This document shows positions 928 through 25,097 of a stretch of DNA of 40,860 nucleotides, piece after piece. The notes under the pieces were generated by a model that saw only the letters and a list, made by a program, of their open reading frames with translations, searched no databases and was not told the origin of the DNA. How positions within the stretch are numbered: the stretch's first letter is position 1; each line of letters starts with the position of its first letter. The translations under genes and the position numbers were made by a program. This DNA is from Thermoleophilia bacterium (GTDB lineage Bacteria; Actinomycetota; Thermoleophilia; Gaiellales; JAICJC01), in the NCBI GenBank assembly GCA_025928655.1, contig JAICJC010000016.1, forward strand, positions 1-40,860, given 5' to 3'.

Positions 928-1386
928 CTAGGCCAGCCCTTTCTCGCGAAGCTCCGCGAGGGCGCCGTCGCTCTTTTGAAGCGCGTCCGACCCCATGCCC
1001 GCGAGCACGGCGGGCGTCTTCGTGAACTGCACGTCGCGGTAGTCGACGACCTCGATGTTGTTCCCCCAGGGGTCGCGGAAGCGCAGCGCCCCGGCGGCCG
1101 GCACCGACACCCCGGCGTCGCGGAGTGCTCCGCGCAGCGATTCCTTGCCGTCGACCACGAGCCCGAAATGGCGCGAGGCGTCCTCGGTCTGCGTACGCGG
1201 CTCGCTGAGCGCGATGAACTGATCGCCCAGGTCGATCCACGCCATCCGTCCCCTGTGGCCGCGCAGCTCGAAGGCCAGGAACCGCCCCCACCATTCGAGC
1301 GCGGCGTCGACGCTGTCCACCTCGAGGGCGACGTGATTGAGGCCCAGGGCCCGCACCCGGGGCCGCCGGCTCGGCGTCCCGGTCAC
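928..1386 (-). CDS. VOC/glyoxalase-family protein
   Basis: GTG start at 1386 overlaps the TGA of the upstream FMO (GTGA); LNHVALEVDSVDAALEWW...FRDPWGNNIEVVDYRDVQF. Confidence 0.8.
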   Translation of the reverse strand: MTGTPSRRPRVRALGLNHVALEVDSVDAALEWWGRFLAFELRGHRGRMAWIDLGDQFIALSEPRTQTEDASRHFGLVVDGKESLRGALRDAGVSVPAAGALRFRDPWGNNIEVVDYRDVQFTKTPAVLAGMGSDALQKSDGALAELREKGLA

Positions 1387-6976: not shown

Positions 6977-6983
6977 ACTCGGG

Positions 6984-7327
6984 CTGCCGATCAGGCAGTC
7001 GCGGCGCCCTCGGGCGTCGAGGAAAGTCGGGACACCGCAGGGCAAGGGTGCCGGGTAACGCCCGGACGGGGAAACCCGATGGAAAGCGCAACAGAGAGCA
7101 GACCGCCGACCGGCGCCCTCGGGCGTCGAGGCAAGGGTGAAACGGTGGTGCAAGAGACCACCAGCGTCCGCGGAGACGCGGGCGGCTAGGCAAGCCCCAC
7201 CCGGTGCAACGCCAAACGGAGCGATGACGCGGCCCGCCGAGCTCCAGGTAGGCGGCGCGAGCCGGCCGGTAACGGCCGGCCCAGATGGATGACTGCCCCA
7301 GACAGAATCCCGCTTACAGATCGGCTA
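6984..7327 (+). ncRNA. rnpB: RNase P RNA (bacterial type A)
   Basis: GAGGAAAGTCGGGAC, ACAGAGAGCAGACCGCC, GCAAGGGTGAAACGGTGGTGCAAGAGACCACCAGCG, AGGCAAGCCCCACCCGG, GATGACTGCC, ACAGAATCCCGCTTACAGATCGGC; P1 pairing GCCGATC (6986-6992) with GATCGGC (7319-7325). Confidence 0.95.
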
Positions 7328-7329
7328 CC

Positions 7330-7357
7330 GGAGAGCCCCGCGCGAGCGGGGCTCTCC
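7330..7357. terminator. Strong hairpin downstream of rnpB, shared with the convergent nitrilase gene
   Basis: GGAGAGCCCCGC-GCGA-GCGGGGCTCTCC: 12-bp perfect stem with GNRA loop; no T tract. Confidence 0.7.
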
Positions 7358-7380: not shown

Positions 7381-8403
7381 TCACGGCCCGACTTCGAGCG
7401 CCTCCTCGGCCACCGGCATGTGATCCGGGCCGGCGAGCCACGAGATCTGCGATCGCTTGCGCCTGTCGACGGTCAGGTCGAAGATGTCCGGTCGGTTGTA
7501 ATGGCCGACCGTGTCCATGGCGTAGCGCTCGCGCGATGCGTGCGCGAGGTCGAGATCGGCGTAGAGGGTGACCTCCTCGTTGTGCACCGGCCCGACAAGC
7601 CAGTTCGCGTCGGGGCCGATGACGCCGCTCCCACCGGTCAGCATCGTCTCGCGGCCGCCCTCCGGGTCGGACCCGGCGAACATCGCCTCCCGCAGCTCAA
7701 AGCTGTCGGCGACCGCGCTCGCCGGCATGTATGTGCCCGCGACCAGCACGAAGCAGCGGCCCTCGAATGCATAGTGACGGCTGCCCAGATGCGCCAGCTC
7801 GTATCCCCACGGCCAGACCGCGACGTGGATCAGCTCCGACTGCGCGTGCATCGCAAACCGCGTCAGCGGCATCCAGTGTTCCCAGCACACGAGGCCACCC
7901 AGGCCGCCGTACGGCCTATCGAGCACCAGCAACCCGCTGCCATCCTCGCTCGCCGCCCAGATCATGCGCTCGGCATGCGTCGGCACGAGCTTTCGATGCA
8001 CCGCCACCTGACCGTCGGCCATCAGGTAGAGGAGGGAGTTGTAGAGCGTCCCACCCGATACCTCGTTGATCCCCACCACCACGTCGACGCCGCGCGCGAC
8101 GGCCGCCCTGGTGAGCCGATCGCAGGCGGGGCTTGGCACCTCGAGCGACTGCTCGTGCAGCTTCGCGAAACCGCGCTTGGCGGCCTCGTCGCCCCACCCG
8201 GCCGCGCCGTAGATCCACAACGGATACCCCGGAACCCACACCTCCGGGAACGCGATCACCTGGGCGCCCGCGTCGGCCGCCTCGTTGATCAGGGCGATCC
8301 CCTTCTCGATGGTTGCGTCGCGATCCAGAAAGACCGGCGACGCCTGCACGACCGCCACACGGCAGGTGTCTGCGTGGCGTTCAGCTCCTGCGTGAGTCCC
8401 CAT
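7381..8403 (-). CDS. Nitrilase/carbon-nitrogen hydrolase
   Basis: RVAVVQASPVFLD, AFPEVWVPGYP (Glu), HRKLVPTHAERM (Lys), GLVCWEHWMPL (Cys). Confidence 0.92.
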   Translation of the reverse strand: MGTHAGAERHADTCRVAVVQASPVFLDRDATIEKGIALINEAADAGAQVIAFPEVWVPGYPLWIYGAAGWGDEAAKRGFAKLHEQSLEVPSPACDRLTRAAVARGVDVVVGINEVSGGTLYNSLLYLMADGQVAVHRKLVPTHAERMIWAASEDGSGLLVLDRPYGGLGGLVCWEHWMPLTRFAMHAQSELIHVAVWPWGYELAHLGSRHYAFEGRCFVLVAGTYMPASAVADSFELREAMFAGSDPEGGRETMLTGGSGVIGPDANWLVGPVHNEEVTLYADLDLAHASRERYAMDTVGHYNRPDIFDLTVDRRKRSQISWLAGPDHMPVAEEALEVGP

Positions 8404-8435
8404 GATGTCGCCCCTCGGCTCGAAGACGGAACGTC

Positions 8436-8469
8436 ATTTCCCGTATAGTGGATATCGTTCCCGTGTAGT
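8436..8469. promoter_or_regulatory. Candidate IclR-type operator between nitrilase and amidase
   Basis: ATTTCC-CGTATAGT-GGATAT plus a second copy of the left part: TTCCCGTATAGT (8438) and TTCCCGTGTAGT (8458), 20 bp apart. Confidence 0.55.
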
Positions 8470-8482
8470 CTCGCAACTTACC

Positions 8483-9874
8483 ATGACCGACCGCGACCGT
8501 CTCGCCCGCGCCTCGATCAGCGACCTGCGCGGCCTGCTGGCCACGGATGAGCTGACCGCCGAAGCCCTCGCCGCCGCCTGCGCCGATCGCATCGAGCAGC
8601 TCAACCCCGAGCTCAACGCCGTCGTCCACCTCGACCGTGCGACGGTCACCGCGCAGGCCCGGGCGCTGGATCGCATCCCACCCGATCAGCGCGGCCCGCT
8701 CCACGGCATCCCCGTCGCCATCAAGGACGTGACGGAGACCGCCGACATGCCGACCACCTACGGCTCGCGCGCCTACGCCGGCTACCGAGCAGGATTCGAC
8801 GCCGCGATCGTCGGCCTGCTCCGCGCCTCCGGCGCCGTCATCCTCTGCAAGACCAACACTCCCGAGCTCGCCTGCGAGCCCGCCACCCGCAGCCAGCTCC
8901 ACGGCGACACCCACAACCCGTGGGACCTCGAGCGATCGCCCGGAGGGTCGAGCGGCGGTGCCGGCGCAGGCCTCGCCGCCGGGCTCTTCCCGCTCGCCCA
9001 GGGCACCGACGCCGGCGGATCGATCCGCATCCCCGCATCGTGCTGCGGCGTGGTCGGGATCAAGCCCACGCGCGGGCTCGTCACCATGGATCCGCTCGGC
9101 CACGGGGCGTGGGGCGGTCTGCTGCACAACGGGCCGCTCGCGCGCAGCGTTCGTGACACCGGAATCGCGCTCGACGTGATGTCCACGCCCTGCCGGCCCG
9201 CGGGCGAGCCCACCGCTCGCTGGAGCACGACGTTCGCCGACGCGTGCGACGCCGAGCTCCCGACCCTGCGAATCGCCTGCTCCAGTGCCGTGCCGGGCGC
9301 CGCCGTGGACGCCGAGGTCGCCGCCAGCTTCGCCGAGGCGGTCGGGGCGTTCCGGGCGCTCGGGTGCGACGTCGCGCCCGCGGCTCCCGACTTCTCCGAC
9401 TTCGCCGGGCCGTTCATGACCCTCGCCGCCGTTGCCTTCGCCGGCATGGGCAGCGCGATGCCCGACGAGCGGCTGGCGCTGATCGGGCACAAGTGCCTCG
9501 CGCTGATGAAGCGCGGCTGGGCGATCAGTGGTGCCGACTACTACAACGCCACGCTCGCTGCGCAGGCCGCGGGCTCACGAGCGCTCGAGTTCTGGGACGA
9601 GTTCGACCTGCTCCTGACGCCGACGGTTCCCACCGTCCCGCCGCGGCTCGACGAGTTTCCGTCGACCGACGAGTACGAGCAGATGTGGGCCGAGTACGGC
9701 TTCTGGGAGACGTTCACCTCGCCCGCGAACCTCAGCGGCCAGCCGGCGATCGCGCTGCCCGCGACCCCAGGCCGCGAATCCCGGCTCCCCATCGGCATCC
9801 AGCTGATGGGTCGTCCCGGCGCGGATGCGCTGCTCCTCACGGCGGCCGCGGCCTATCAGAGGGTCAACCCGTGA
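8483..9874 (+). CDS. Amidase (amidase signature family)
   Basis: GPLHGIPVAIKDVTETADMPTTYGSRAY; NPWDLERSPGGSSGGAGAGLAAGLFPLAQGTDAGGSIRIPASCCGVVGIKPTRG. Confidence 0.93.
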   Translation: MTDRDRLARASISDLRGLLATDELTAEALAAACADRIEQLNPELNAVVHLDRATVTAQARALDRIPPDQRGPLHGIPVAIKDVTETADMPTTYGSRAYAGYRAGFDAAIVGLLRASGAVILCKTNTPELACEPATRSQLHGDTHNPWDLERSPGGSSGGAGAGLAAGLFPLAQGTDAGGSIRIPASCCGVVGIKPTRGLVTMDPLGHGAWGGLLHNGPLARSVRDTGIALDVMSTPCRPAGEPTARWSTTFADACDAELPTLRIACSSAVPGAAVDAEVAASFAEAVGAFRALGCDVAPAAPDFSDFAGPFMTLAAVAFAGMGSAMPDERLALIGHKCLALMKRGWAISGADYYNATLAAQAAGSRALEFWDEFDLLLTPTVPTVPPRLDEFPSTDEYEQMWAEYGFWETFTSPANLSGQPAIALPATPGRESRLPIGIQLMGRPGADALLLTAAAAYQRVNP

Positions 9875-11190
9875 ACGAGCTCGAGCGATCCGTCACCGCC
9901 GCCATCGCCGCCGGCCGCGAGGAGCTGGTAACCCTCGTGACCGGCCTGGTCGGCTTCGACACGACCGCGCGCGAGCCGGCGGACCCGCCGCGGCAGGAGG
10001 CCGACATGCAGCGCTACCTCGCCGGCCGGCTGGCCGCAGCCGGCGCCTCGATCGACCTGTGGGAGCCCGAAGAGGGCTCGCTCGGCTCGCCGCGCCAGGT
10101 GCCGCCCGGCCTCTCCTTCGGCGGCAGGCCGCAGTTCGCCGCGACCTTCACCGGGACGGGCGGCGGCCGGTCGCTGCTCCTGAACGGGCACATCGACGCG
10201 GTCACGCCTGACCCGGTCGACGCGTGGACGGGCGATCCCTGGCAGGCGGAGAGGCGGGACGGGAAGGTGTACGGCGTCGGCGCGAGCGACATGAAGAGCG
10301 GCGTCGCCTGCATGGCCTACGTCGCCGAGGTGCTCGCCCGGCTCGGCGTGCGCCTGCAGGGCGATCTGATCGTCCACACCAACACCGACGAGGAGTCGTC
10401 CGGTTCCGGCTCGATCGCCGGGGTCGAGCACGGCTTGCGGGCCGATGCCGGCATCTGCACCGAGCCCACCCCGGGCGAGATCTGGGTGGCGTGCCGAGGG
10501 TCGATGTCCCTGACCGTACGAGTCGTAGGTCGCGCCGGCCACGCCGAGATCGAGCACCCGCACTGGCGCGAGGGCGGGGCGGTGAACGCGATCGACAAGG
10601 CCTCGATCCTGATGGACGCGATCCGCGAGCTCGACGCCGAATGGCAGGCGCGGCCCAACCGCGTCCATTCCTACCTGCCGCCCGCCACGATCATGACCAC
10701 GGTGATCGATGGCGGCACCTGGTACGTGACCTACCCGGCCTCGTGCACGTTCACGGTGAACATGCTCTACCTCCCGGCGGACGCGGACGCGGAGGGGTGG
10801 GGGACGGAGATGGCGCTCCAGGTCGAGGAGCGGCTGCTCGCGGCCGCCGCGACAGACGAGTGGCTGGCCGAGAACCCGCCGGCCTTCGAGTGGGGGCCCG
10901 ATCTGCCGCCCTTCGAGGTCGACGGCACGAGCCCGATCGTGGAGACGCTTGGCGGCGCCGCCGCCGACCTCGGGATGCCGCAGCGCCTCGGCGGTCTGGC
11001 GTCGTGGTTCGACGCGGCGTCGTTCACACGCGCCGGGGCGTGTCCGATGGTCGGCTTCGGGGCGGGCACGGCGGGCCGTCCGTTCGAGGGCCACAAGGCG
11101 GACGAGTCGGTCGTGATCGACGATCTGGTGCGCTGCGCCCAGACGCTGGCCGTTACGGTGATGCGTTGGTGCGGAGTGGCGTCCAGCTGA
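9871..11190 (+). CDS. M20-family peptidase/deacylase (ArgE/DapE-like)
   Basis: GTG start overlaps the amidase stop; LLLNGHIDAVTPDP, YGVGASDMKSGVACMAYVAEVL, NTDEESSGSGS. Confidence 0.9.
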   Translation: MNELERSVTAAIAAGREELVTLVTGLVGFDTTAREPADPPRQEADMQRYLAGRLAAAGASIDLWEPEEGSLGSPRQVPPGLSFGGRPQFAATFTGTGGGRSLLLNGHIDAVTPDPVDAWTGDPWQAERRDGKVYGVGASDMKSGVACMAYVAEVLARLGVRLQGDLIVHTNTDEESSGSGSIAGVEHGLRADAGICTEPTPGEIWVACRGSMSLTVRVVGRAGHAEIEHPHWREGGAVNAIDKASILMDAIRELDAEWQARPNRVHSYLPPATIMTTVIDGGTWYVTYPASCTFTVNMLYLPADADAEGWGTEMALQVEERLLAAAATDEWLAENPPAFEWGPDLPPFEVDGTSPIVETLGGAAADLGMPQRLGGLASWFDAASFTRAGACPMVGFGAGTAGRPFEGHKADESVVIDDLVRCAQTLAVTVMRWCGVASS

Positions 11191-11280
11191 ACGGGCGATC
11201 GGGGCTCGCCGAGGCTGGTGGTACACGTCGAGACTAGAGGATGGCAGTGCGGTCAACCGGGCGAGTAACGTCACATCCGA

Positions 11281-12060
11281 ATGCCGCGACCGCGCACCGA
11301 TAGCGATCCCGAGGCCCCGAAGGTCCTCGAGAAGGCGCTGCGGGTGCTGGAGGCGTTCGACGACCAGACGCCGGCCTGGTCGGAGGCTGCGCTGCGCCGG
11401 CGGCTCTCGATGCCGTCAACGACGCTCAACCGCATTCTGCGCAGTCTCGAGCGCGCGGGCTACCTGGTGCGCTACGAGGACGGGCGCTACCAGCTGGGAG
11501 CGGCCGCGGTCCGGCTTGGCAACCGCGCCAGCCGCACCCTGAATCTGGGGACCGCGCTCGAGCCGCACCTCCGCGCCCTGGGCCAGGAGACCGGCGAGCT
11601 GGTGATCCTCGGCATTCCCGACGTCTCCGCCGGGGTGGCGCGGTACGTCAAGACGGTGGACTCGCCCAGCCGCCTGCGGGTCACGGCCGAGATCGGCAGC
11701 GAGGTACCGCTGACGGCGGGCGCGACGGCTAAGGCGATCTTCGCATTCCTGCCCGACGATCGGATCGAACAGGTGATCGCGCAGGCGTCGCGAGCGATTG
11801 CAGCCGGCACCATCACCGACCCTGCGGTGCTGCGCGAGCAGGTCCGTCAGATCCGCGACCGCGGCTGGGCGTTCAGCTGGCAGGAAACCTACGACGGCGC
11901 GTGGGCGGTCGCCGCACCCCTGCTCGACGCCGACAGGCAGACCGCGTATGCCGCCATCGGCGTGGCGACGCCGGTCTCGCGGCACAGCGAGGAGACCGAG
12001 CTGGCCGTGCGCGACGCGGTCTTGCGCACGGTCACGGAGGCCACTCGCTCGCTCGGCTGA
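11281..12060 (+). CDS. IclR-family transcriptional regulator
   Basis: VLEKALRVLEAFDD...LSMPSTTLNRILRSLERAGYLVRYEDGRYQLGAAAVRLG; PLTAGATAKAIFAFLP effector-domain motif. Confidence 0.93.
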   Translation: MPRPRTDSDPEAPKVLEKALRVLEAFDDQTPAWSEAALRRRLSMPSTTLNRILRSLERAGYLVRYEDGRYQLGAAAVRLGNRASRTLNLGTALEPHLRALGQETGELVILGIPDVSAGVARYVKTVDSPSRLRVTAEIGSEVPLTAGATAKAIFAFLPDDRIEQVIAQASRAIAAGTITDPAVLREQVRQIRDRGWAFSWQETYDGAWAVAAPLLDADRQTAYAAIGVATPVSRHSEETELAVRDAVLRTVTEATRSLG

Positions 12061-12172
12061 CGCGCCCACCTCGTGGGTTCCCGGCGCCCACCATCGTCAC
12101 CGTCTTGGCGGCAGGCGAGCGGCCGCTTGCACCCCGACCCAGCGATGTGTAGGGTAGAACGAATTGGGATGG

Positions 12173-12192
12173 TTTTCCGAATTTCGGGAAAT
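12173..12192. promoter_or_regulatory. Candidate IclR-type operator upstream of the ABC transporter operon
   Basis: TTTTCC-GAATTTCG-GGAAAT; same TTCC-N8-GGA(A/T) architecture as at 8436; 20 nt before the 12213 start. Confidence 0.55.
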
Positions 12193-12212
12193 AAAGACGG
12201 AGCGATGATCCG

Positions 12213-13106
12213 GTGAGCCCGCGCCGCTACCTGCTCGCACTGGGCGTACCCGGGCTGATCTGGGTCGTCCTGTTCGTCACCCTCGCCCTCTACTCGCTGC
12301 TGGCGATCGCGCTGGGAGGGATCGACCCGCTGCTGCTGACGCCGGTGCCGGCGTGGAACCCGGTCGACTGGAGCACCGCGAACGTGCACGAGGTGGCCCA
12401 GAGCCTGCAGCCATTCTCGGGCGACACGTGGATCGTCTTTCAGCGGACGTGCATCTACATCCTGCTCGCGCTCGCCGGATGCATCCTGATCGGCTATCCG
12501 GTCGCGTACTTCACGGCAGTGCACGCCGGCCGCTGGCGCGGGCCGATCCTGGCGCTGCTCGTGCTGCCGCTGCTGGTGAGCTACATGCTGCGGATGCTCG
12601 CCTGGGTCGGCCTCCTGTCGCCGCAGGGCTGGGTGAACGCGGTGCTCGTGCCGCTCCACGTCGTCCCGGCGAACTTCGGCTGGCTCGACGGGCGGGCGAT
12701 CACCGTCGTCTCGGGGCTGATGTACGGCTGGATCCCGTACTTCATCATTCCCGTCTACGCGGCCCTGGCCCGGTTTGACACGCGCTATCTAGAGGCGTCT
12801 CGCGACCTCGGGGCGGGCACGGGTTCGACCTTCCTCCACGTGACGCTGCCGATGTCGCGGCAGGGCCTGTTGGCGGGCACGGTGGTGGTGGCGCTGCCGA
12901 TGTTCGGCGACTTCTTCACGAACGGCCTGCTCTCCGGCGTGAGCTCGACGGGCATGGTCGGAACCCTGATCAACACCTACGCCGAGAGCCAGACCAACCA
13001 GGCGGTTGCCGCGGCGGTTGCGGTGTGGCTGACCGTGTTCCTCGGGATTCTGCTTCTGCCCTACCTGCGCAGCTCGGCGCGGGCGGGCCGGGAGGTGGGC
13101 CGGTGA
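12213..13106 (+). CDS. ABC transporter permease (PotB-like, spermidine/putrescine type)
   Basis: LVLPLLVSYMLRMLAWVGLL...YLEASRDLGAGTGSTFLHVTLPMSRQGLLAG (EAA loop). Confidence 0.88.
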   Translation: MSPRRYLLALGVPGLIWVVLFVTLALYSLLAIALGGIDPLLLTPVPAWNPVDWSTANVHEVAQSLQPFSGDTWIVFQRTCIYILLALAGCILIGYPVAYFTAVHAGRWRGPILALLVLPLLVSYMLRMLAWVGLLSPQGWVNAVLVPLHVVPANFGWLDGRAITVVSGLMYGWIPYFIIPVYAALARFDTRYLEASRDLGAGTGSTFLHVTLPMSRQGLLAGTVVVALPMFGDFFTNGLLSGVSSTGMVGTLINTYAESQTNQAVAAAVAVWLTVFLGILLLPYLRSSARAGREVGR

Positions 13107-13987
13107 GCTCACGCCTGCGGCACGCCTCCTGGGGCAAGATCGGGCTGGTCGCGATCGTCGTGCTCTACATCGTCTGGTCGCTGGCTCCGGTGGCGATCGC
13201 GTTCCTGTTCTCGTTCAACGCGGGCTACTCGCGCAGCACCTGGCAGGGCTTCTCGATGCAGTGGTGGACCGGGTCGAAGTCCGTTTTCAACCTGCCGATC
13301 TACACCGACGCGATCCGGCACAGCCTGCTGCTCGCGGTGCTTGCCGTGATCATCACCGTGCCGCTGGGCGTCTCCCTCTCGATCTTTCTCAGCCGCTGGC
13401 GCGGCATCACCGCGCGGCCGGCATCGTTCCTGGCGACCGTGCCGCTGGTCGTGCCCGAGCTAGTACTGGCGCTGGCCCTGTTCTTCCTGGTCACGAAGGT
13501 GAACCTGCCCGTCGTCACACTGGGGACGTCGGGCCAGGTAGTCGGGCAGGTCACTTTCATCCTGCCGCTGGTCATCGTGATCACCATCGGCCGGCTGTCC
13601 TCGATCCCTACCGGCTACGAAGAGGCTGCTCAGGACCTGGGCGCATCGCCGCCGCAGTCGTTCCGGCTGGTGCTCGTGCCGCTCCTGCAGCCGGCGATCC
13701 TGGCCAGTGCGATCGTGGCGTTCGCCGTCTCGATCGACGACTTCGTGATCACGCAGTACATGTCGTCGACCTCGTCCACGCAGTCGGTGCCGATGCTGAT
13801 CTACACCGCCACCAGGGGCGGGGCGACGCCCGCGCTAAACGCGATGGCCACCATCATGGCGGTGACGACGATCGTCATCGCCGCGGTCGGGTTCGCCCTC
13901 TATCGCCTGCTCGCGCGGCGCGAGCAGATCACCGACGTGCCGGCGCCCGCACCCGCGCTCGCCGTCTCTCGCGAAGGAGCGCTCTGA
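13103..13987 (+). CDS. ABC transporter permease (PotC-like)
   Basis: GTG start overlaps the upstream stop; SFNAGYSRSTWQGFSMQWW; YEEAAQDLGASPPQSFRLVLVPLLQPAILA. Confidence 0.88.
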   Translation: MSSRLRHASWGKIGLVAIVVLYIVWSLAPVAIAFLFSFNAGYSRSTWQGFSMQWWTGSKSVFNLPIYTDAIRHSLLLAVLAVIITVPLGVSLSIFLSRWRGITARPASFLATVPLVVPELVLALALFFLVTKVNLPVVTLGTSGQVVGQVTFILPLVIVITIGRLSSIPTGYEEAAQDLGASPPQSFRLVLVPLLQPAILASAIVAFAVSIDDFVITQYMSSTSSTQSVPMLIYTATRGGATPALNAMATIMAVTTIVIAAVGFALYRLLARREQITDVPAPAPALAVSREGAL

Positions 13988-15129
13988 TGGCCGGCGGCCA
14001 CATCCAGATCACCGACCTGTCGAGGTCCTACGGAGACGTCCTGGCCGTGAACCACATCGATCTCGAAATGGTGCCCGGCGAGTTCTTCTCGATGCTCGGC
14101 CCTTCGGGCTGCGGCAAGACCACCACGCTGCGGATGATCGCCGGGTTCGAGGACCCGGACAGCGGCCAGATCCTGCTCGACGGGGTGGACATCCGGCACA
14201 CGCCGCCCCACAAGCGGCCGGTGAACACGGTCTTCCAGGCCTACATGATCTTCCCGCACCTCGACGTCTACGAGAACGTCGCGTTCGGGCTGCGCCGCCA
14301 GCGCGTCGGCAAGGACGAGCTCCGCCGCCGGGTTGGCGCCGCGCTCGAGCTCGTGCAGCTCGAGGCGCTCGCCAAGCGGAAGCCCTCGCAGCTCTCGGGC
14401 GGCCAGCAGCAGCGGGTCGCGCTGGCCCGTGCGCTGGTCCTCGAGCCGGCCGTGCTGCTGCTCGACGAGCCGCTCGGAGCGCTCGACGCCAAGCTGCGCC
14501 ACCAGCTCCAGGACGAGCTGAAGACCTTGCAGCAGACCGTCGGGATCACGTTCGTCTACGTGACGCACGACCAGGAGGAGGCGCTCACGATGAGCGACCG
14601 CATCGCCGTGATGAGCCACGGTGCGGTGGAGCAGATCGGGACGCCGCGCGAGGTCTACGACGAGCCGACCACCGAGTTCGTCGCCGACTTCCTGGGCATC
14701 TCGAACCTGCTCTCTGCCCAGGCGGTCTCCGGCGTCCCCGGCGAGTGCCTGCTGCGGGTGGGCGAGTTCCTGCTCACCGCCCGCGGCGGTGAGACCGCCG
14801 CGCGCGGCCAGGTGAAATGCGTGGTGCGGCCGGAGCGCGTCAACCTCGAGCCCGCCGGCGCAACCGGCCACAACCGCGTGCCCGGCACGGTCGAGCGGCT
14901 CGTCTACCTGGGCAGCGCGACCCGCGCGATCGTGCGCCTGGACACTGGCCAGACGCTCCAGTCGCTGATTCCGAGCGACGGGCAGCCCGTGGCGTTCGAA
15001 GAGGGCATCGCCGTGCAGCTCGAGCTGCCCGCCGACGCGCTGCGAGTGGTGAAGGGCGGCGGCGGTGCGGCGGCCCCGCAGGCCGAACACGTTCTTGGTG
15101 ACCAACTGGAAGGAGCAGCGGATGCATGA
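13987..15129 (+). CDS. ABC transporter ATP-binding protein (PotA-like)
   Basis: Walker A LGPSGCGKTT, signature LSGGQQQRVALARAL, Walker B VLLLDEPLGALD; TOBE-like C-terminus; TGATG overlap. Confidence 0.95.
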   Translation: MAGGHIQITDLSRSYGDVLAVNHIDLEMVPGEFFSMLGPSGCGKTTTLRMIAGFEDPDSGQILLDGVDIRHTPPHKRPVNTVFQAYMIFPHLDVYENVAFGLRRQRVGKDELRRRVGAALELVQLEALAKRKPSQLSGGQQQRVALARALVLEPAVLLLDEPLGALDAKLRHQLQDELKTLQQTVGITFVYVTHDQEEALTMSDRIAVMSHGAVEQIGTPREVYDEPTTEFVADFLGISNLLSAQAVSGVPGECLLRVGEFLLTARGGETAARGQVKCVVRPERVNLEPAGATGHNRVPGTVERLVYLGSATRAIVRLDTGQTLQSLIPSDGQPVAFEEGIAVQLELPADALRVVKGGGGAAAPQAEHVLGDQLEGAADA

Positions 15130-16399
15130 CCATGACGAGGGCCCCCGACTGAGCCCGCTCGCGATGCGGATGACGCGCCAGGCGATGCTGCGCAAGACCG
15201 CCGGTGGTGCCGCGGCGCTCGGCGCGTCGAGCTGGCTGCTCGCCGCCTGCGGAGGCTCGAGCGGCGGCGGATCCGGGGGATCCGGCGGCTCGACGTCGGA
15301 CGACCCATCCCTGCCGATCGGCACGAAGAACCGCCCGATCACCCTGCCCATATCGTCGGACAACCCGGCGATCGCCTCGGGCAAGTCGCCCGAGCGCGGC
15401 CCGTTCGTCATCTATGACTGGGACTACTACCTGAGCCCGGCCGTGGTCAAGAGCTTCGAGCAGAAGTACAACGTCAAGGCCCAGCTCACGACGTTCGCGT
15501 CCATCGACGAGGCGGTCAACAAGATCGCGTCGGGCGCCATCACCCCCGACGTCTGGGTGCCGGACGCCGAGCACATCTACCAGGTCGCGCAGAGCAAGCT
15601 GATCCAGCCGATCAACCACAGCTACATCCCCAACCTCGACAAGGCGATCACCGCGGCCGCCAACCCATGGTATGACCGCGGCGCCCGGTACACGTCGCCG
15701 AACTTCATCAACACGTTCGGCATCGGGTGGCGCAACGACCTGGTGAACATCAATCCGGCCAACGAGAAGAACTGCTGGGACGTGTTCTGGGAGACTCCCG
15801 GTGGCACCCCCATGGGCATGCTGAACGCGGCCCCCTACGACGCGATCAGCATGACGATGATCCGCAACGGCAGCACTCTCGAGCACGTCAGCGAAGACGA
15901 CGTGACCAAGGCGGCCAACGACCTCTCCAAGCTGTCCAACGTGAAGTGGCAGTACACGAGCTTCCAGCCGCTCGGCACAGGCGTCGAGCACCTGGCGTTC
16001 GCCTTCAACGGCGACTTCGCCGTGATCGGCGACTACCTGTCCAAGTCGGTGCCGATCAGCGCCGTGGACTACTACTTCCCGGCGGCCGGCAACGGCGTGA
16101 TCCTGAACGACTGCTGGACGATCCCCAAGTCGGCCAAGAACCCCGTCCTAGCGCACCTGTGGATGAACCACTTCCTCGAGACCGAGAGCGCCATCGCCAA
16201 CTTCCGCGACGTGGGCTATCAGACCATGCTGACCGATCTCACTGTCGACAAGTTGGTCGCCGCCAAGGTGGCGGACCCCCACGAGATCGAGATGGCCTTC
16301 TCGCCGCCGGCGTTCCAGGAGAACGGCATCCCGGTGCCCTTTTGGAACACCCAGCAGTTGATGTGGATGGAGCGTGAGTTCGCGCAGTTGACCTCCTAA
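15122..16399 (+). CDS. ABC transporter substrate-binding lipoprotein (PotD-like)
   Basis: Signal with lipobox SWLLAACGGSSGG; VIYDWDYYLSPAVVKSFEQKYNVK...AITPDVWVPDAEHIYQVAQSKLIQPINHSYIPNL. Confidence 0.9.
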   Translation: MHDHDEGPRLSPLAMRMTRQAMLRKTAGGAAALGASSWLLAACGGSSGGGSGGSGGSTSDDPSLPIGTKNRPITLPISSDNPAIASGKSPERGPFVIYDWDYYLSPAVVKSFEQKYNVKAQLTTFASIDEAVNKIASGAITPDVWVPDAEHIYQVAQSKLIQPINHSYIPNLDKAITAAANPWYDRGARYTSPNFINTFGIGWRNDLVNINPANEKNCWDVFWETPGGTPMGMLNAAPYDAISMTMIRNGSTLEHVSEDDVTKAANDLSKLSNVKWQYTSFQPLGTGVEHLAFAFNGDFAVIGDYLSKSVPISAVDYYFPAAGNGVILNDCWTIPKSAKNPVLAHLWMNHFLETESAIANFRDVGYQTMLTDLTVDKLVAAKVADPHEIEMAFSPPAFQENGIPVPFWNTQQLMWMEREFAQLTS

Positions 16400-16500
16400 C
16401 CGACGCGCCCCACTCACTCGCTGTCGAGCAGCATCACGAACGGTCGTGAGACCGGGTGGACGATCCACGGGCGGAGCCAGAAGCAGGAACGGAGCACACG

Positions 16501-18009
16501 ATGATCAGAACCGGAGACGAATACCGCGAGTCGATCCGCGACGGGCGTGAGGTCTGGGTGGACGGCGAGAAGGTCGCTGATGTGACCACCCACCCGTCGC
16601 TGAAGCCGATCATCGACGCCCGCGCACGGATCTACGACATGGCGCACGATCCGCGGACGCGCGACGTGATGTCGTATCTCGACACCGAGACGAACGAGCG
16701 CTGTCCGGTGGGCGCCAAACTGCCGCTGACCCGAGAGGACTGGCACGCCAAGCGCACGGCGGTGGACACGGTGATGGACGATCTCAACGGGATCGTCACC
16801 CGCGTCGGCGACGAGACGGTGGGTGAGATGTGGTCGCTGTTCGACGGCCAGGACGTGCTGAACGAGATCAACCCGGCGTTCTCGCAGCACATCCGCGACC
16901 ACATCCGCCACGCAGCGCTCGCCGATCCGTTCCACGTCTCGGCCAACACTGACGCCAAGGGCGACCGCTCCAGGCGGCCGCAGGATCAGGATCCGGACGT
17001 GCTGCTGCACACCGTGCGCGAGACCGGCGACGGCATCGTGGTGCGTGGTGCCAAGTTCGAGACCGCCGCCGCATACGCCAACCAGGCGTTCGTCAAGCCG
17101 ACCATCGGTGAGTGGGGTGACGCCGAGCTCTCCGACTACGCGGTCGGGTTCGTGGCGCAGATGAACGCCCCGGGGATCAAGCACATCTGCCGCTCGTCCT
17201 TCGCGGGCCGCGGGTCGGACGCCGACTATCCGATGTCAAACCGGTTCGACGAGATCGACACCATGATCGTCTTCGACGACGTGGAGATCCCCTGGGAGAA
17301 CGTCTTCTTCTACCGGCACACCAAAGCAGCGGCGTTCATCCGCGCGACGCTGCATCGCTACTCGATGTTCCCGTTCGTGCAGCGGCACCTGCGGTTCGCC
17401 GACCTGATGATCGGCGTCGCGTACACCAACGCGGTCCAGACCGGCGTGAAGATGCACCAGGGCGTGCGCGAGCGGCTGGCCGAGCTGGTCTGCTACCGCG
17501 AGGGGATCAACGCTCACCTGACCGCCGCGATCGACATGGCGGAGACCAGCCCGGGCGGCCTGATGATGCCGAACCAGGCGCTGCTCTACACGGGCCGGGT
17601 GCTGGCGTGCTCACAGCTTCCGCAGATCATGCACGCCGCACGCGATCTGCTCGGTGGCCAGCTGTGCGTGACACCCAACGCGGCGGCCTTCGCCGATCCT
17701 GATGAGGCCGTGTGGCTCGACAAGTACCTGGCCATCGGTGATGTCGACGCCGAGGATCGCCGCCGGCTGTTCGCGTTCGCCCGCGACCTGCTCAATTCCG
17801 ACTACGCCGGACACCGGTTGACGTTCCAGCTCTTCGCCCAGTCGCCCCGGTTCTCACACCTGCTGGCCGTCTACAACAACTATGACTTCGCGGGGCCCGC
17901 CGACCTCGTCAAGCGGTACGCGGGCCTCGAGAGCGAACTGCCCCAGCGCGAGGATCGGCTCATCTCCGCCACGCCGGCCGTCGACGCGCCGAGCCAGGCC
18001 GGCAAATGA
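16501..18009 (+). CDS. 4-hydroxyphenylacetate 3-hydroxylase (HpaB)-family flavin monooxygenase
   Basis: MIRTGDEYRESIRDGREVWVDGEKVADVTTHPSLKPIIDARARIYDMAHDP; DEIDTMIVFDDVEIPWENVFFYRH. Confidence 0.9.
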   Translation: MIRTGDEYRESIRDGREVWVDGEKVADVTTHPSLKPIIDARARIYDMAHDPRTRDVMSYLDTETNERCPVGAKLPLTREDWHAKRTAVDTVMDDLNGIVTRVGDETVGEMWSLFDGQDVLNEINPAFSQHIRDHIRHAALADPFHVSANTDAKGDRSRRPQDQDPDVLLHTVRETGDGIVVRGAKFETAAAYANQAFVKPTIGEWGDAELSDYAVGFVAQMNAPGIKHICRSSFAGRGSDADYPMSNRFDEIDTMIVFDDVEIPWENVFFYRHTKAAAFIRATLHRYSMFPFVQRHLRFADLMIGVAYTNAVQTGVKMHQGVRERLAELVCYREGINAHLTAAIDMAETSPGGLMMPNQALLYTGRVLACSQLPQIMHAARDLLGGQLCVTPNAAAFADPDEAVWLDKYLAIGDVDAEDRRRLFAFARDLLNSDYAGHRLTFQLFAQSPRFSHLLAVYNNYDFAGPADLVKRYAGLESELPQREDRLISATPAVDAPSQAGK

Positions 18010-19265
18010 GCGATCTGAACGTGGTGAACGCCGCCGAGGTGGCGGTCGTGGCCGACCGTGGCGTGTCCCGGCGCGGTCGCGACCAACGCGAGCTCGATCT
18101 GATCGCCGACGGCGCCGTGGCAATCCGGGGCGGCCGCATCGTGGCGGTCGGCCGCACCCCCGACGTGCTGAAGGAGTGGGGGGAGGACGGCGTCGCGACG
18201 CTCGACGCATCGGGGCAGACCGTGCTGCCGGGGCTGATCGAATGCCATTCGCATCCGCTCTTCTCGGGCAAGCGCCACGCCGAATACCAGCTGCGGCTGG
18301 ACGGGGCGTCGCTGAGCGAGATCGCCGCGGCGGGCGGAGGGATCTGGTCGACCGTAGTCGCCACCCGTGAGGCGGACGACCGGACGCTGATGGCCGCGCT
18401 CGATACGACATACGCGCGAATCCTCGCCGCCGGCGTGACCACGCTCGAGGCGAAGTCCGGCTACGGGCTCACCCCGGCGCACGAGCTGCATCAGCTCGAG
18501 CTGCTGGATCGGAGCCGCGCGATCACGCCGCTCTCCCTGGTCATCTCGTACCTCGGCGCGCACGTCGTGCCGGATGGCGTCGGCGCCGACGCGTACACCA
18601 GCGAGGTGCTCGAGACGCTCCCGGCGGTGATCGACCAGGGCATCGCAGCCTTTCACGACATCACCTGCGAGGCGGGGCTGTTCACACCCGAGCAGGCGGC
18701 GTCGATGTTCGCCGCCTCCCGCGCGCGCGGCATCCGGACGAAGGCCCATGCCGACGCCTGGGCGAGCTCGCATGGCTGGGAGACGGCGGTCGCCGGCGGC
18801 GCCGTTTCGGCCGAGCACCTTACGTACACGCCCGACGACGAGATCCGCGGCGTGGGCGGCACCGACACGATCGCCGTGCTCCTGCCGCAGGCCGAGCTCG
18901 TCTACATGACCGAGCGCCGGGCCAACGCGCGGCTCCTGATCGACCAGCATGTGCCGGTCGCGATCGCGACCGACTACTGCTCGTCGATCCACGCCACCTC
19001 GCTGACCACCACGCTCGGCATGGCCGCGCCGTGGTTTCGGATGACCGCCGCCGAGGTGATCGTCGGCGCGACGCTGAACGCCGCATATGCCCTCCGGCTG
19101 GAAGGTGACCGGGGCTCACTCGAGGTCGGAAAGCGCGGCGATCTGACGGTGCTCGACATCGAGCACCCCAACGAATTGACGCTCGCCGTCGGCCAGAGCG
19201 TGGTCTCCGATGTGGTCATCGGTGGCGAGATCCAGCAGCGAGAACCAGACAGGAGGACGCGATGA
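18006..19265 (+). CDS. Imidazolonepropionase-like amidohydrolase
   Basis: VLPGLIECHSHPLFSGKRHAEYQLRLDGASLSEIAAAGGGIWSTVVATR; LEAKSGYGLT; PVAIATDYCSSI; ATGA overlap with the HpaB-like gene. Confidence 0.85.
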   Translation: MSDLNVVNAAEVAVVADRGVSRRGRDQRELDLIADGAVAIRGGRIVAVGRTPDVLKEWGEDGVATLDASGQTVLPGLIECHSHPLFSGKRHAEYQLRLDGASLSEIAAAGGGIWSTVVATREADDRTLMAALDTTYARILAAGVTTLEAKSGYGLTPAHELHQLELLDRSRAITPLSLVISYLGAHVVPDGVGADAYTSEVLETLPAVIDQGIAAFHDITCEAGLFTPEQAASMFAASRARGIRTKAHADAWASSHGWETAVAGGAVSAEHLTYTPDDEIRGVGGTDTIAVLLPQAELVYMTERRANARLLIDQHVPVAIATDYCSSIHATSLTTTLGMAAPWFRMTAAEVIVGATLNAAYALRLEGDRGSLEVGKRGDLTVLDIEHPNELTLAVGQSVVSDVVIGGEIQQREPDRRTR

Positions 19266-19699
19266 GTCATACCCGGATCAGGAAGTTCAACACCAGGGAC
19301 ACCTACCCCGAGCAGAACCTCGACAACGACCTGTGCCAGGCGGTCGTCGCGGGCAACATGGTGTTCTTGCGTGGCCAAGTCGGCCTCGACATCGACACCA
19401 ACGAGTCGGTCGGGATCGGGAACGTCGCGGCCCAGACCGACAAGGCGATGGCCAACATCGACACGTTGCTCAACGAGGCCGGCGCACGCATGGAGGACGT
19501 CTGCAAGATCGTCGTCTACCTCACCGACGTCCGCTATCGCGACACCGTGTACCAGGTCATGGGGCGCTGGATGAAGGGCGTGTTCCCGTGCTCGACCGGC
19601 GTCGTCATCGACGGTCTGGCGCGGCCGGAATGGGTGGTCGAGATCGACGCGACCGCCGTGATCCCGGCTGACCGCCTTCCGAACGCGACGGGCGGTTGA
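19262..19699 (+). CDS. RidA/YjgF/UK114-family protein
   Basis: NMVFLRGQVGLDIDTNESVGIGNVAAQTDKAMANIDTLLNEAGARMEDVCKIVVYLTDVRYRDTVYQVM; ATGA overlap with upstream gene. Confidence 0.88.
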   Translation: MSHTRIRKFNTRDTYPEQNLDNDLCQAVVAGNMVFLRGQVGLDIDTNESVGIGNVAAQTDKAMANIDTLLNEAGARMEDVCKIVVYLTDVRYRDTVYQVMGRWMKGVFPCSTGVVIDGLARPEWVVEIDATAVIPADRLPNATGG

Positions 19700-19921: not shown

Positions 19922-22879
19922 ATGGATACCTCCCACGCCCCTCGGAGCGCCGGGGGTACGAACATGGCGACGTTCGCAGCTGCAGAGACGGAGCCCCCCG
20001 CGGTCAGCCCCGAGCAGGCAGCCGTGGTCGCCGAGACGGTGTTCGGCGTCACCGGGCCGATCGTCGAGCTCGGCAGCCAGCAGGACCGGAACTTCCGCAT
20101 CGACGCGGCCGACGGCCGCTACGTCCTCAAGATCGCCAACCCGGCCGTGCCGGAGGTGCAGCTCGCCTGCCAGAACGCGGCGATGGAGCACCTCGCGCGC
20201 GGCGGGGTGGCCGTGCCGCGCCCCTGCCCGGCGGGGAGCGGGGCCACGCTCGAGCGGGCGCGGATCGGCGATGCCGACCTCCTCGTGCGGCTGCTCACCT
20301 TCCTCGACGGAACCCCGCTCGCGAGCTTCGGCTACCTGGCCCCGGCCGTCCGGGCACGGCTCGGCGGCCTGTCGGCGACCGCGTGCCGGGCGTTCACCGG
20401 CTTCGACGCCCCGGGGCTCGACCGGCGGCTGGAGTGGGACCTGCGCAACGCCGAGGCCGTCGTGGCGTCCTTCGCGCCGCACGTGGTCGACCCGGCCCGG
20501 CGGGAGCGGCTCCTCAGCGTGACGGCCGCCGCGTGCGAGCACCTGGGACGGGTGGAGGACGATCTGCGCATCGCGCCGATCCACGGCGACGTCACCGGCG
20601 ACAACGTCGTCGGCGAGGTCGGGGCCGACGGGCGGCCCTGGCCGGCGGGACTGATCGACTTCGGCGACATCACCCGCAGCTGGGTCGTGTCCGAGCTCGC
20701 CGTCACCTGTGCCGCCTTCCTGCACCAGATGGGCGGCGATCCGCTCGGCTGGCTGCCGGCCGTCGCCGCGTTCCACGCCGTCGTGCCGCTGGACGAGGCG
20801 GACGTCGCCGCGCTCTGGCCGCTCGTCGTCCTGCGGGGCGCCACCCTGGTCGCCGCCGACGAGCGCCAGCTCGCCCTCGATCCCCAGAACGACTACGTCG
20901 CCGGCAACCTCGAGAACGACCTCGTCATCTTCGAGTCGTCGGTGTCGCTGCCGTGGGCGCTCGCGCAGGCGGCGATCCGCGAGACGCTCGGGCTGGGCGG
21001 GGAGAGGCGGATGGTGCCGCCCTTCGCGCCGGTGGTCGCCGGGTTGAGCGAGGGCCGGATCGAGATCGTCGACCTCTCGTCGACGAGCGAGGCGCTCGAC
21101 GAGGGCCGCTGGCTCGACGCGGGCGCAGAGGACGCGGCCTTCGCGGCGGCCGGCGGGTCGGCCCCGGTGGCGCTCGCCCGGTACGGCGAGCACCGGCTCA
21201 CGCGCGCCGCCGTGCACCGCGCCGACGAGCCGGCGACGTGCGCCCTGCACGCCGAGGTCGGCCTCGCCGCCGGACGCGGTGTCACCGCCCCCGCCGCCGG
21301 CGTGGTGGTGGAGGCATCTTCGGGGCGGCTCGTCGTCCGCTGCGACGACGTGACGGTGCAGCTGGACGGCATCGACCCGGCCGTGACGGCGGGCGAGCGG
21401 GTCGCGACCGGGGCCCCGCTCGGCGCGGTCGCCGCCGGCCCGGCCGGCCGCGGCCGGATCCGCGTCCAGGTCTGCCTGGTGCCCGAGGCCGACCCGCCCG
21501 CGTTCGCGACCCCCTCCGCGGCGGCCGCGTGGGGGCGGATCTGCCCCGACCCGTCGCCGCTGCTCGGCATCGACTGCGCCGCGCCGGCGGTCGACGCCGG
21601 GCGGGTGTTCGCGCGCCGGGACGGGGCCTTCGCGCGCATCCAGGCGCACTACTACGCCGACCCGCCCCAGATCGAGCGCGGGTGGCGCCACCACCTGGTC
21701 GACACGACGGGGCGGGTCTACCTCGACATGGTGAACAACGTGACCGTGGTCGGCCACGCGCACCCGGGGGTGGCGCAGGCGATCGCCCGTCAGTCCCGGC
21801 TCCTGAACACCAACTCGCGCTTCAACTACGCCGCGGTGGCGGACTTCTGCGAGCGGCTGGCGGCCCTCGCGCCCGACGGGCTCGACACCGTGGTGCTCGT
21901 GAACAGCGGCACCGAGGCGAATGACGTCGCCCTGCGCCTCGCCCGGGCGCACACGGGCCGCGAGATCGTCGTCGCGATGCGCGAGGCCTACCACGGCTGG
22001 TCGATGGCGGCGGACGCGATCTCGACGTCCATCGCCGACAACCCGCGTGCGCTCGAGACGCGGCCCGCGTGGGTGCGGCTGGTCGATTCGCCGAACCCCT
22101 ACTCCGGCACCCACCGCGGCCCGGAGAGCGGCCCGAGCTACATCCGCGACGCCCTCGCGGTCATCCACGGCCTCGAGGCGCCGGCCGAGGCGCCGGCGGC
22201 GTTCATCTCCGAGACGGTGCACGGCAACGCCGGGGGCATCCTGCTCCCCGACGGCTACCTCGAGGCGGTGTACGGCGCGATCCGGGCCGCGGGCGGGATC
22301 TGCATCGCCGACGAGATCCAGGTCGGCTACGGCCGGCTGGGCCACCACTTCTGGGGCTTTCGCCAGCAGGGCGTCGAGCCGGACGTGATCACGGTTGCCA
22401 AGGCGATCGGCAACGGCCATCCCCTCGGCGCCGTCATCACCCGCCCCGAGATCGCGGAGTCGTTCGCGGCGGAGGGAAGCTTCTTCTCCTCGACCGGCGG
22501 CAACCCCGTCAGCTGCCGCGTCGGCCTGGCGGTGCTCGACGCGATCGAGTCGGAGGGGCTGCAGGCGAACGCGCGCGACGTCGGCGAGCACCTCCTCGCC
22601 CGGCTGCGTGACCTGGCCGAGCGGCACCCGCTGATCGGGGCCGTCCACGGGATTGGGCTCTATGCGAGCGTCGAGCTCGTCATCTCCCCCGAGACGAGGG
22701 AGCCGGCGACGGAGGTGGCGGATGCCATCTGCGAGCGGATGCGCGAGCTCGGCATCGTCGTGCAGCCGACCGGCGACCACCTGAACATGCTGAAGATCAA
22801 GCCGCCGCTGTGCATCACCCGGGAGAGCACCGACTTCTTCGTCGAACAGCTCGAGCTCGTGCTCCGCACCGGCTGGTGA
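19922..22879 (+). CDS. Multidomain protein: aminoglycoside-phosphotransferase/hydroxylysine-kinase-like domain, M23-like middle domain, class III aminotransferase/phospholyase domain
   Basis: APIHGDVTGDNVV...GLIDFGDITRSW (kinase); GVTAPAAGVVVEASSGRLVVRCDD (M23-like); VNSGTEANDVALRLARAHTGR...CIADEIQVGYGRLG...VITVAKAIGNGHPLGAVI (class III PLP, Lys). Alternative start at 19964. Confidence 0.88.
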   Translation: MDTSHAPRSAGGTNMATFAAAETEPPAVSPEQAAVVAETVFGVTGPIVELGSQQDRNFRIDAADGRYVLKIANPAVPEVQLACQNAAMEHLARGGVAVPRPCPAGSGATLERARIGDADLLVRLLTFLDGTPLASFGYLAPAVRARLGGLSATACRAFTGFDAPGLDRRLEWDLRNAEAVVASFAPHVVDPARRERLLSVTAAACEHLGRVEDDLRIAPIHGDVTGDNVVGEVGADGRPWPAGLIDFGDITRSWVVSELAVTCAAFLHQMGGDPLGWLPAVAAFHAVVPLDEADVAALWPLVVLRGATLVAADERQLALDPQNDYVAGNLENDLVIFESSVSLPWALAQAAIRETLGLGGERRMVPPFAPVVAGLSEGRIEIVDLSSTSEALDEGRWLDAGAEDAAFAAAGGSAPVALARYGEHRLTRAAVHRADEPATCALHAEVGLAAGRGVTAPAAGVVVEASSGRLVVRCDDVTVQLDGIDPAVTAGERVATGAPLGAVAAGPAGRGRIRVQVCLVPEADPPAFATPSAAAAWGRICPDPSPLLGIDCAAPAVDAGRVFARRDGAFARIQAHYYADPPQIERGWRHHLVDTTGRVYLDMVNNVTVVGHAHPGVAQAIARQSRLLNTNSRFNYAAVADFCERLAALAPDGLDTVVLVNSGTEANDVALRLARAHTGREIVVAMREAYHGWSMAADAISTSIADNPRALETRPAWVRLVDSPNPYSGTHRGPESGPSYIRDALAVIHGLEAPAEAPAAFISETVHGNAGGILLPDGYLEAVYGAIRAAGGICIADEIQVGYGRLGHHFWGFRQQGVEPDVITVAKAIGNGHPLGAVITRPEIAESFAAEGSFFSSTGGNPVSCRVGLAVLDAIESEGLQANARDVGEHLLARLRDLAERHPLIGAVHGIGLYASVELVISPETREPATEVADAICERMRELGIVVQPTGDHLNMLKIKPPLCITRESTDFFVEQLELVLRTGW

Positions 22880-23567: not shown

Positions 23568-25097
23568 TCAGACCGGCTCGTCGACGATTCGGTCGCCCGT
23601 CAGCGAGACGTCGACCGCCCGCCGGCGCACGTCCGCGCCGAGCACGTATCCGAGCAGCGCGAACGCGAGCACCACCGCCAGCGTGCCCAGCGTGAACACC
23701 TCGAACCGCGCCTGGCTCACCCCCCAGACCGAGGGGAAGTCGTACTCGGCGCCGAACAGATGCTCGAGCGTGTCGGGGAACACCGCGACCCACGAGCCGA
23801 GCAGGGCCCAGGCCGTGCACAGCACACCGGTGATCCACATCCCCGCGTTCCCGCCGGGGACGACGAACGGCCGGTGCACGTCGGGGTAGTCGCGCCGCAG
23901 CTTGATCAGGGTGGGGAAGATCAGCAGGTACGAGATCAGCGTCGTCGAGATGGCCATGTTCAGCACGACGCCGAACACCGCCGCCTCGCTGCCCTGGAGC
24001 AGGTTCACGGCCGCGACCATGAAGATCGTGGACGTGATCCCCGACATGACGTTCACCCGCACCGGCGTCCCGAACCGCTGGCTGAAGACGCCGAACCAGC
24101 CGATGAAGGCGCCGTCGTAGCCGGCCACGGCCTGGATGCGGTCGGAGCCCATCATCCAGACGGCGCCGGACGTGACGAGGGCGAAGATGAAGCCGAGCGC
24201 CATCAGGTCGGTGAGGAAGTCCTGGGCGCCGCCGTACACGCCGAAGGTCTGGTGGACGGCGTCGAGGAAGCCGCTGATCCCCTGGATCTTGGTCCGCGGC
24301 AGCACCGTCACGATGCCGAGGATGGGGATGCCGTAGGCGAGCGCGGTGATCGCGCCGCTCGAGAGGATCGAGCGCGGCACGTCGCGCTGCGGGTTCTCCA
24401 TCTCCTCGGCGGCGCCGTTCTGGAGCTCGAACCCGACGTAGGCGAACACGAGCAGCGGCACGAGGGCGATGAACGTCTGCGAGGTCGGCTTGAAGTCGCC
24501 CGCGCCGTAGCCGTGCAGGCCGTGCTCGATCGCGTAGATGACGACCGTGATCCCGAAGAAGATGAGGACGACAAAGCGCACGATCGCGCCGGCGTTCGGG
24601 ATCCACTTCCCCCGCCGCAGCGAGGCGATCGCGACGAGGATCGAGATCCAGATGAAGACGAGCTTGAACGCGTAGTCGCCGATCGTGCCGCTCCCGATCG
24701 AATGCAGGTTCGCGCTCCACGCGTCGGTCGCGGTGAAGCACAGCGAACCGCCCACCCAGAACGGGTTCGTCACCCAGTAGAGGACCGCGCCGACCCCGGC
24801 GGGCAGCCGGCCCCACGAGAGCTTCATCCACTCGTACGGCCCGCCCTCCTGGGTGAAGCTGCTGCCCAGCTCGACCATCAGCAGGGCGTACGGCGCGAGG
24901 AAGAAGACGATCAGCACGACGATCCAGGTGAAGGTCTGGGCCCCGTAGCCGGAGACCTGCCCCAGGATGTCGAGGCCCACGATCGCGCAGACCGTGAAGA
25001 ACACCATGTCGAAGTACGTGAGGCTCTTGCGGAGCTTGTGCCGCTCCGACAGGGCAAGCTCGGTGGTGTGTTCCGCACGCGGCGGGTGCGATGACAT
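23568..25097 (-). CDS. APC-superfamily amino acid permease
   Basis: LSERHKLRKSLTYFDMVFFTVCAIVGLDILGQVSGYGAQTFTWIVVLIVFFLAPYALLMVELGSSFTQEGGPYEWMKLSWGRLPAG. Confidence 0.9.
   Translation of the reverse strand: MSSHPPRAEHTTELALSERHKLRKSLTYFDMVFFTVCAIVGLDILGQVSGYGAQTFTWIVVLIVFFLAPYALLMVELGSSFTQEGGPYEWMKLSWGRLPAGVGAVLYWVTNPFWVGGSLCFTATDAWSANLHSIGSGTIGDYAFKLVFIWISILVAIASLRRGKWIPNAGAIVRFVVLIFFGITVVIYAIEHGLHGYGAGDFKPTSQTFIALVPLLVFAYVGFELQNGAAEEMENPQRDVPRSILSSGAITALAYGIPILGIVTVLPRTKIQGISGFLDAVHQTFGVYGGAQDFLTDLMALGFIFALVTSGAVWMMGSDRIQAVAGYDGAFIGWFGVFSQRFGTPVRVNVMSGITSTIFMVAAVNLLQGSEAAVFGVVLNMAISTTLISYLLIFPTLIKLRRDYPDVHRPFVVPGGNAGMWITGVLCTAWALLGSWVAVFPDTLEHLFGAEYDFPSVWGVSQARFEVFTLGTLAVVLAFALLGYVLGADVRRRAVDVSLTGDRIVDEPV

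Follow-up and report, generated by a model that had tools for sequence, protein, structure and literature searches.

Gene organization of the locus

The window, i.e. the whole stretch of 40,860 nucleotides that was analysed, belongs to a draft genome of 193 contigs and has a G+C content of 71%. All genes that an earlier note on this DNA had named in the region were recovered, with the same positions and families. They are listed here with the next gene downstream.

7381-8403, minus strand: nitrilase (PF00795); divergent, adjoins the cluster, pathway membership uncertain
8483-9874 (start at 8483 likely), plus strand: amidase-signature hydrolase (PF01425)
9871-11190, plus strand: M20 (ArgE/DapE-type) hydrolase; proposed HinG-like role
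11281-12060, plus strand: IclR-family regulator (family match, and kept in the variant loci)
12213-13106, plus strand: ABC permease, PotB-like
13103-13987, plus strand: ABC permease, PotC-like
13987-15129, plus strand: ABC ATPase, PotA-like
15122-16399, plus strand: extracellular solute-binding protein, distant PotD/PotF relative (PF13416)
16501-18009, plus strand: HpaB-family flavin monooxygenase (Pfam HpaB_N/HpaB), HinF-like; proposed imidazole-4-acetate monooxygenase
18006-19265, plus strand: HutI-like amidohydrolase (TIGR01224); proposed 4-imidazolone-5-acetate amidohydrolase
19262-19699, plus strand: RidA-family protein (PF01042), HinL-like
19922-22879, plus strand: PRK06149 phosphotransferase-aminotransferase fusion (NCBIfam PRK06149, 1314.7 bits); next gene downstream, membership uncertain

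The genes had been described as contiguous and mostly coupled by overlapping stops and starts. Overlaps of one to eight bases are indeed found between most neighbours, namely at the M20 hydrolase, the second permease, the ATPase, the binding protein, the amidohydrolase and RidA, whereas gaps of about 90-150 bases occur at the IclR regulator, the first permease and HpaB. The nitrilase, which had been listed among the contiguous genes, was rejected as a member of the operon because it is transcribed divergently and is rarely conserved with the rest; it has only a short intergenic region in common with the amidase, and its nearest PDB relatives are true nitrilases. The PRK06149 fusion was likewise rejected, being absent in a congener beside its amidohydrolase, which is 93% identical. 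An APC permease (23568-25097) was rejected as well, since its closest relatives, which are in congeners, were not found beside this HpaB; relatives of 48-50% identity do occur in the hin-type loci described below. No flavin reductase is encoded inside the cluster, two being present elsewhere in the genome, and the window has neither a dedicated aldehyde dehydrogenase nor a dedicated amine oxidase. A class A RNase P RNA (6983-7332) lies just upstream of the cluster, and further upstream (1383-3080, minus strand) a FAD_binding_3 monooxygenase carries a fused C-terminal cytochrome b5 domain, an unusual combination.

Conservation of the HpaB neighbourhood and its resemblance to the hin pathway

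The HpaB protein was scanned against 84,980 species, which gave 385 relatives; the loci of the best 80 were kept, gene-called and clustered, with Pfam and NCBIfam used to verify the families. The kept homologues share 63-82% identity and come from Actinomycetota, several classes of Pseudomonadota, Thermomicrobiota and SAR324, the window HpaB being nested within the family tree; plasmid records contain HpaB relatives of up to 67% identity. Among these best 80 of 385 relatives, all with enough flanking sequence, HpaB is accompanied by RidA in 68 and by a DUF1028 protein in 59. The stable core consists of HpaB, RidA, the DUF1028 protein, a flavin reductase, a LysR regulator and M20-type hydrolases, to which an aldehyde dehydrogenase, a class III aminotransferase, a copper amine oxidase or an aspartase is often added. 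In two Pseudomonas loci the order is HpaB-RidA-DUF1028-M20, with LysR, aldehyde dehydrogenase and aminotransferase genes close by. A flavoprotein of about 700 residues of the NADH:flavin oxidoreductase type (8007-10112 in locus L039, 12629-14725 in L054) recurs near HpaB in 15 loci and might serve in the demethylation of a methylated substrate.

This gene content corresponds to the published hin pathway of P. putida U and P. aeruginosa (hinFLHG, hinACDK and hinI). In Pseudomonas, hinFLHG convert imidazole-4-acetate to aspartate: HinF is a FAD-monooxygenase (EC 1.14.13.5), HinL an enamine deaminase, HinH an amidase and HinG a hydrolase (EC 3.5.1.8), the last three assignments being taken from a table and a review (PMC6467879, PMC8231116). 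The aminotransferase HinC and the aldehyde dehydrogenase HinD form imidazole-4-acetate from histamine, the aspartase HinI deaminates aspartate, and the LysR protein HinK senses imidazole-4-acetate (PMC6467879, PMC8231116). HinF homologues of Brevibacterium are 60-63% identical to P. putida HinF (PMC6467879). With the HpaB proteins of Pseudomonas hinFLHG-like loci, which served as the reference for HinF, the window protein shares 64-66% identity.

The window likewise encodes a HinF-like HpaB and a HinL-like RidA protein, as well as an M20 hydrolase, and the aminotransferase, aldehyde dehydrogenase and LysR of the hin pathway are present in relatives of the variant. Differences are also evident. 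The hin enzymes are adjoined by an APC permease and LysR, those of the window by a PotABCD-like importer and IclR; the M20 hydrolases belong to different subfamilies; and where hin loci have the DUF1028 protein, the window has a HutI-like hydrolase. The statement in the earlier note that the genes match no canonical pathway is not supported, and the substrate, which it had left unnamed, can be proposed through the HinF and HinL matches to belong to the histamine/imidazole-4-acetate class. Other parts of its outline are supported: a pathway for an N-heterocycle, hydroxylation of the ring by a flavin-dependent enzyme, hydrolytic opening by the amidohydrolase, and an importer conserved together with the enzymes.

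The window RidA is 56-67% identical to the RidA proteins of hin-type loci. Its counterpart of the canonical RidA motif P-A-R reads P-C-S, so that the catalytic Arg is absent, and none of the 60 readable RidA relatives has Arg at this position. The imine/enamine hydrolysis earlier ascribed to RidA is doubtful as written, since proteins of this type lack the Arg of canonical RidA deaminases. The M20 hydrolase shares 55% identity with that of locus L040 and only 27-29% with Pseudomonas M20; for this enzyme we propose a HinG-like role on N-formyl- or formimino-aspartate, or the deacylation of an amine. A relative of the amidase (34%) lies beside the amidohydrolase in L163.

A HutI-like amidohydrolase in place of the DUF1028 protein

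The window amidohydrolase scores 327.9 bits against TIGR01224, above the curated cut-off of 298.15. Among the 80 HpaB loci, such an enzyme is found without DUF1028 in four (the window, L039, L040 and L041), DUF1028 alone in 59, neither hydrolase in 17, and both together in none. Fisher's test gives p = 0.0038 for this exclusion, a value that ignores relatedness, as the tree points to a single event: the HpaB proteins of the four amidohydrolase loci form one clade (support 100/88) nested among the DUF1028-type HpaBs, and their sister group has DUF1028. The class yielded four more relatives of this enzyme (61-93%), and the eight sequences group together as a single clade (100/100) on a long branch away from canonical HutI. 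Plasmid records hold no close relative, all matches being under 60%. In three genomes the amidohydrolase occurs without an HpaB of this type; all three are incomplete bins, and either incomplete assembly or another oxygenase may account for this.

The genes surrounding the amidohydrolase are conserved in part as well. The IclR regulator is 53-72% identical to those of L039, L040 and L163, the binding protein 61-69% to those of the same loci, and the PotB-like permease, PotC-like permease and PotA-like ATPase share 65-66%, 72-73% and 65-68% identity, respectively, with their counterparts in L040 and L163. The neighbourhood check thus bears out the proposed co-conservation of importer and enzymes, with the binding protein recurring in L039 and the whole importer in L040 and L163, all three being independent relatives. 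Together with the pairing of HpaB and RidA in 68 of the 80 loci, this co-conservation is well beyond chance. L040 contains LysR, RidA, IclR, aldehyde dehydrogenase, importer, M20, HpaB, amidohydrolase and aminotransferase genes; L163 has the importer, IclR, an aminotransferase and an amidase, L164 an aspartase, and L039 a copper amine oxidase at the syntenic position. The aminotransferases of the variant loci are 65-70% identical to those of Streptomyces DUF1028-type loci, suggesting that both types have the same upstream steps. The variant-locus aldehyde dehydrogenase is 57-59% identical to the Pseudomonas enzyme, and the LysR proteins are of the same family.

In comparison with HutI of the hut pathway, the window enzyme has the same fold and the same expected ring-opening chemistry. 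It keeps His81, His83, Arg90, Tyr153, His186, His248, His271 and Asp323, which we take to be the HutI metal ligands and the carboxylate-binding Arg/Tyr/His, with roles as in published structures. In contrast, Tyr102, Glu/Gln252, Asn326 and Gly328 (as in the B. subtilis enzyme) are replaced by Leu, Ala, Cys/Ser and Ser in the variant clade; these ring-pocket positions differ in every clade member with data, and hardly any of the sampled canonical HutI proteins has such residues there. A crystal structure of HutI contains imidazole-4-acetate, called a substrate homologue in its title (PDB 2g3f). The conserved metal- and carboxylate-binding residues, the altered ring pocket and this ligand together fit a ring opening of 4-imidazolone-5-acetate. 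The structure model of the amidohydrolase is poor (pLDDT 58) and not usable for the pocket, its best matches still being HutI structures. No hutH or hutU adjoins the gene in the window, and canonical hutU and hutI lie together on contig C133 of the same genome. A plain second hutI was rejected as the main reading on account of clade, pocket and gene context, and is retained below as a rival.

By its place in the gene order the DUF1028 protein would correspond to HinH. Its structure model is confident (pLDDT 94) and matches the solved DUF1028 structure 2imh; the next matches are to Ntn-hydrolase folds, weak and not significant, which leaves a hydrolase role merely plausible. From the mutual exclusion and the conserved residues we infer that the HutI-like amidohydrolase would open 4-imidazolone-5-acetate in place of HinH/DUF1028.

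No DUF1028 gene is present in the window, the copies in its own genome being restricted to contigs C69, C107 and C180. The own genome and a congener nevertheless also hold the DUF1028-type module, and the variant may therefore serve another substrate; the presence of both modules in one genome has to be accounted for, be it by redundancy or by a second substrate. On C69 (locus L125, 2491-6946, minus strand) a second HpaB-RidA-DUF1028-copper amine oxidase module is found with a divergent LysR gene; a frameshift, perhaps an assembly error, interrupts the HpaB of this module.

Proposed pathway and alternative substrates

Taken at the level of gene families, conservation, displacement pattern and catalytic residues, the locus is probably a variant of the histamine/imidazole-4-acetate (hin) module in which a HutI-like amidohydrolase replaces HinH/DUF1028. 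From these sequence features we infer the substrate and each reaction step as follows. The PotABCD-like importer would take up the amine or the acid. The HinF-type HpaB would form 4-imidazolone-5-acetate from imidazole-4-acetate through addition of a single oxygen to the imidazole ring. The HutI-like amidohydrolase, having taken over the position held by the DUF1028 protein (presumed HinH) in most relatives, would open the ring of this imidazolone to give N-formimino-aspartate, as HutI does with the one-carbon-longer propionate. Finally, the HinL-type RidA, the M20 hydrolase and perhaps the amidase could process the product via N-formyl-aspartate to aspartate.

This would assign an unnamed N-heterocycle cluster to a known pathway and points to a distribution of that pathway far beyond Pseudomonas. 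The exchange of a HutI paralogue for DUF1028 also predicts that DUF1028/HinH is a 4-imidazolone-5-acetate hydrolase, and a histidine-pathway enzyme could have been re-used on a substrate one carbon shorter.

It is unlikely that another N-heterocycle, such as pyrrole-2-carboxylate, a pyridine or hydroxypyridine, or a pyrimidine, is degraded instead. HpaB-type oxygenases do act on various rings, and an NCS1 nucleobase-type permease is found near some relatives, but HpaB and RidA, like the enzymes encoded next to them, correspond to those of the hin set. In the Rut pyrimidine pathway (RutA-RutB-RutC) a flavin oxygenase, a hydrolase and a RidA-family protein are likewise encoded in one operon. The Rut oxygenase and hydrolase are of other families, and the window RidA matches RutC only weakly (40.3 bits against a cut-off of 169.1). 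For pyridine, pyrrole and hydroxypyridine pathways, literature searches turned up nothing but the 4-hydroxypyridine kpi cluster of Arthrobacter sp. IN13, in which, as in the window, a flavin monooxygenase is followed by a ring-opening enzyme of the amidohydrolase superfamily. The enzyme families are nevertheless different, as the kpi monooxygenase is of the FAD_binding_3 type, unrelated to HpaB, KpiC is a dioxygenase, and the kpi amidohydrolase groups outside the imidazolonepropionases (PMC7356986).

The same chemistry might also act on another imidazole acid, e.g. imidazole-4-propionate, with HpaB forming 4-imidazolone-5-propionate and the amidohydrolase, as a second HutI, yielding formimino-glutamate. 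The score above the HutI equivalog cut-off, the co-occurrence of both module types in the own genome and a congener, and the atom count, by which imidazole propionate plus one oxygen equals the HutI substrate, are in line with this. We nevertheless consider it quite improbable in view of the canonical hutU-hutI pair elsewhere in the genome, the ring pocket unlike that of canonical HutI, and the aspartase, aminotransferase, aldehyde dehydrogenase and amine oxidase adjoining the relatives, which fit a two-carbon side chain. Its stricter form, a dedicated pathway in which HpaB makes imidazolonepropionate and the HutI-like enzyme opens it, side by side with a normal histamine/imidazole-acetate module in one genome, appears very unlikely. 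If true, the imidazole-propionate reading would mean that the cluster provides a way to metabolise imidazole propionate, which has been linked with diabetes and heart failure.

Finally, the importer, M20 hydrolase, amidase and IclR regulator could form a unit for uptake and deacylation of polyamines or N-acyl-amines that merely adjoins HpaB, the HutI-like enzyme and RidA, in keeping with the distant PotD/PotF relationship of the binding protein (its PDB relatives being spermidine/putrescine-binding proteins, with low score) and with a deacetylase-family gene beside the importer in relatives, but this has little probability, as L039, L040 and L163 also carry importer genes and IclR together with the amidohydrolase, in differing arrangements. 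The deacetylase-family gene, a member of the histone deacetylase family (358-1473 in L039, 458-1549 in L173), suggests deacetylation of an acetylated amine.
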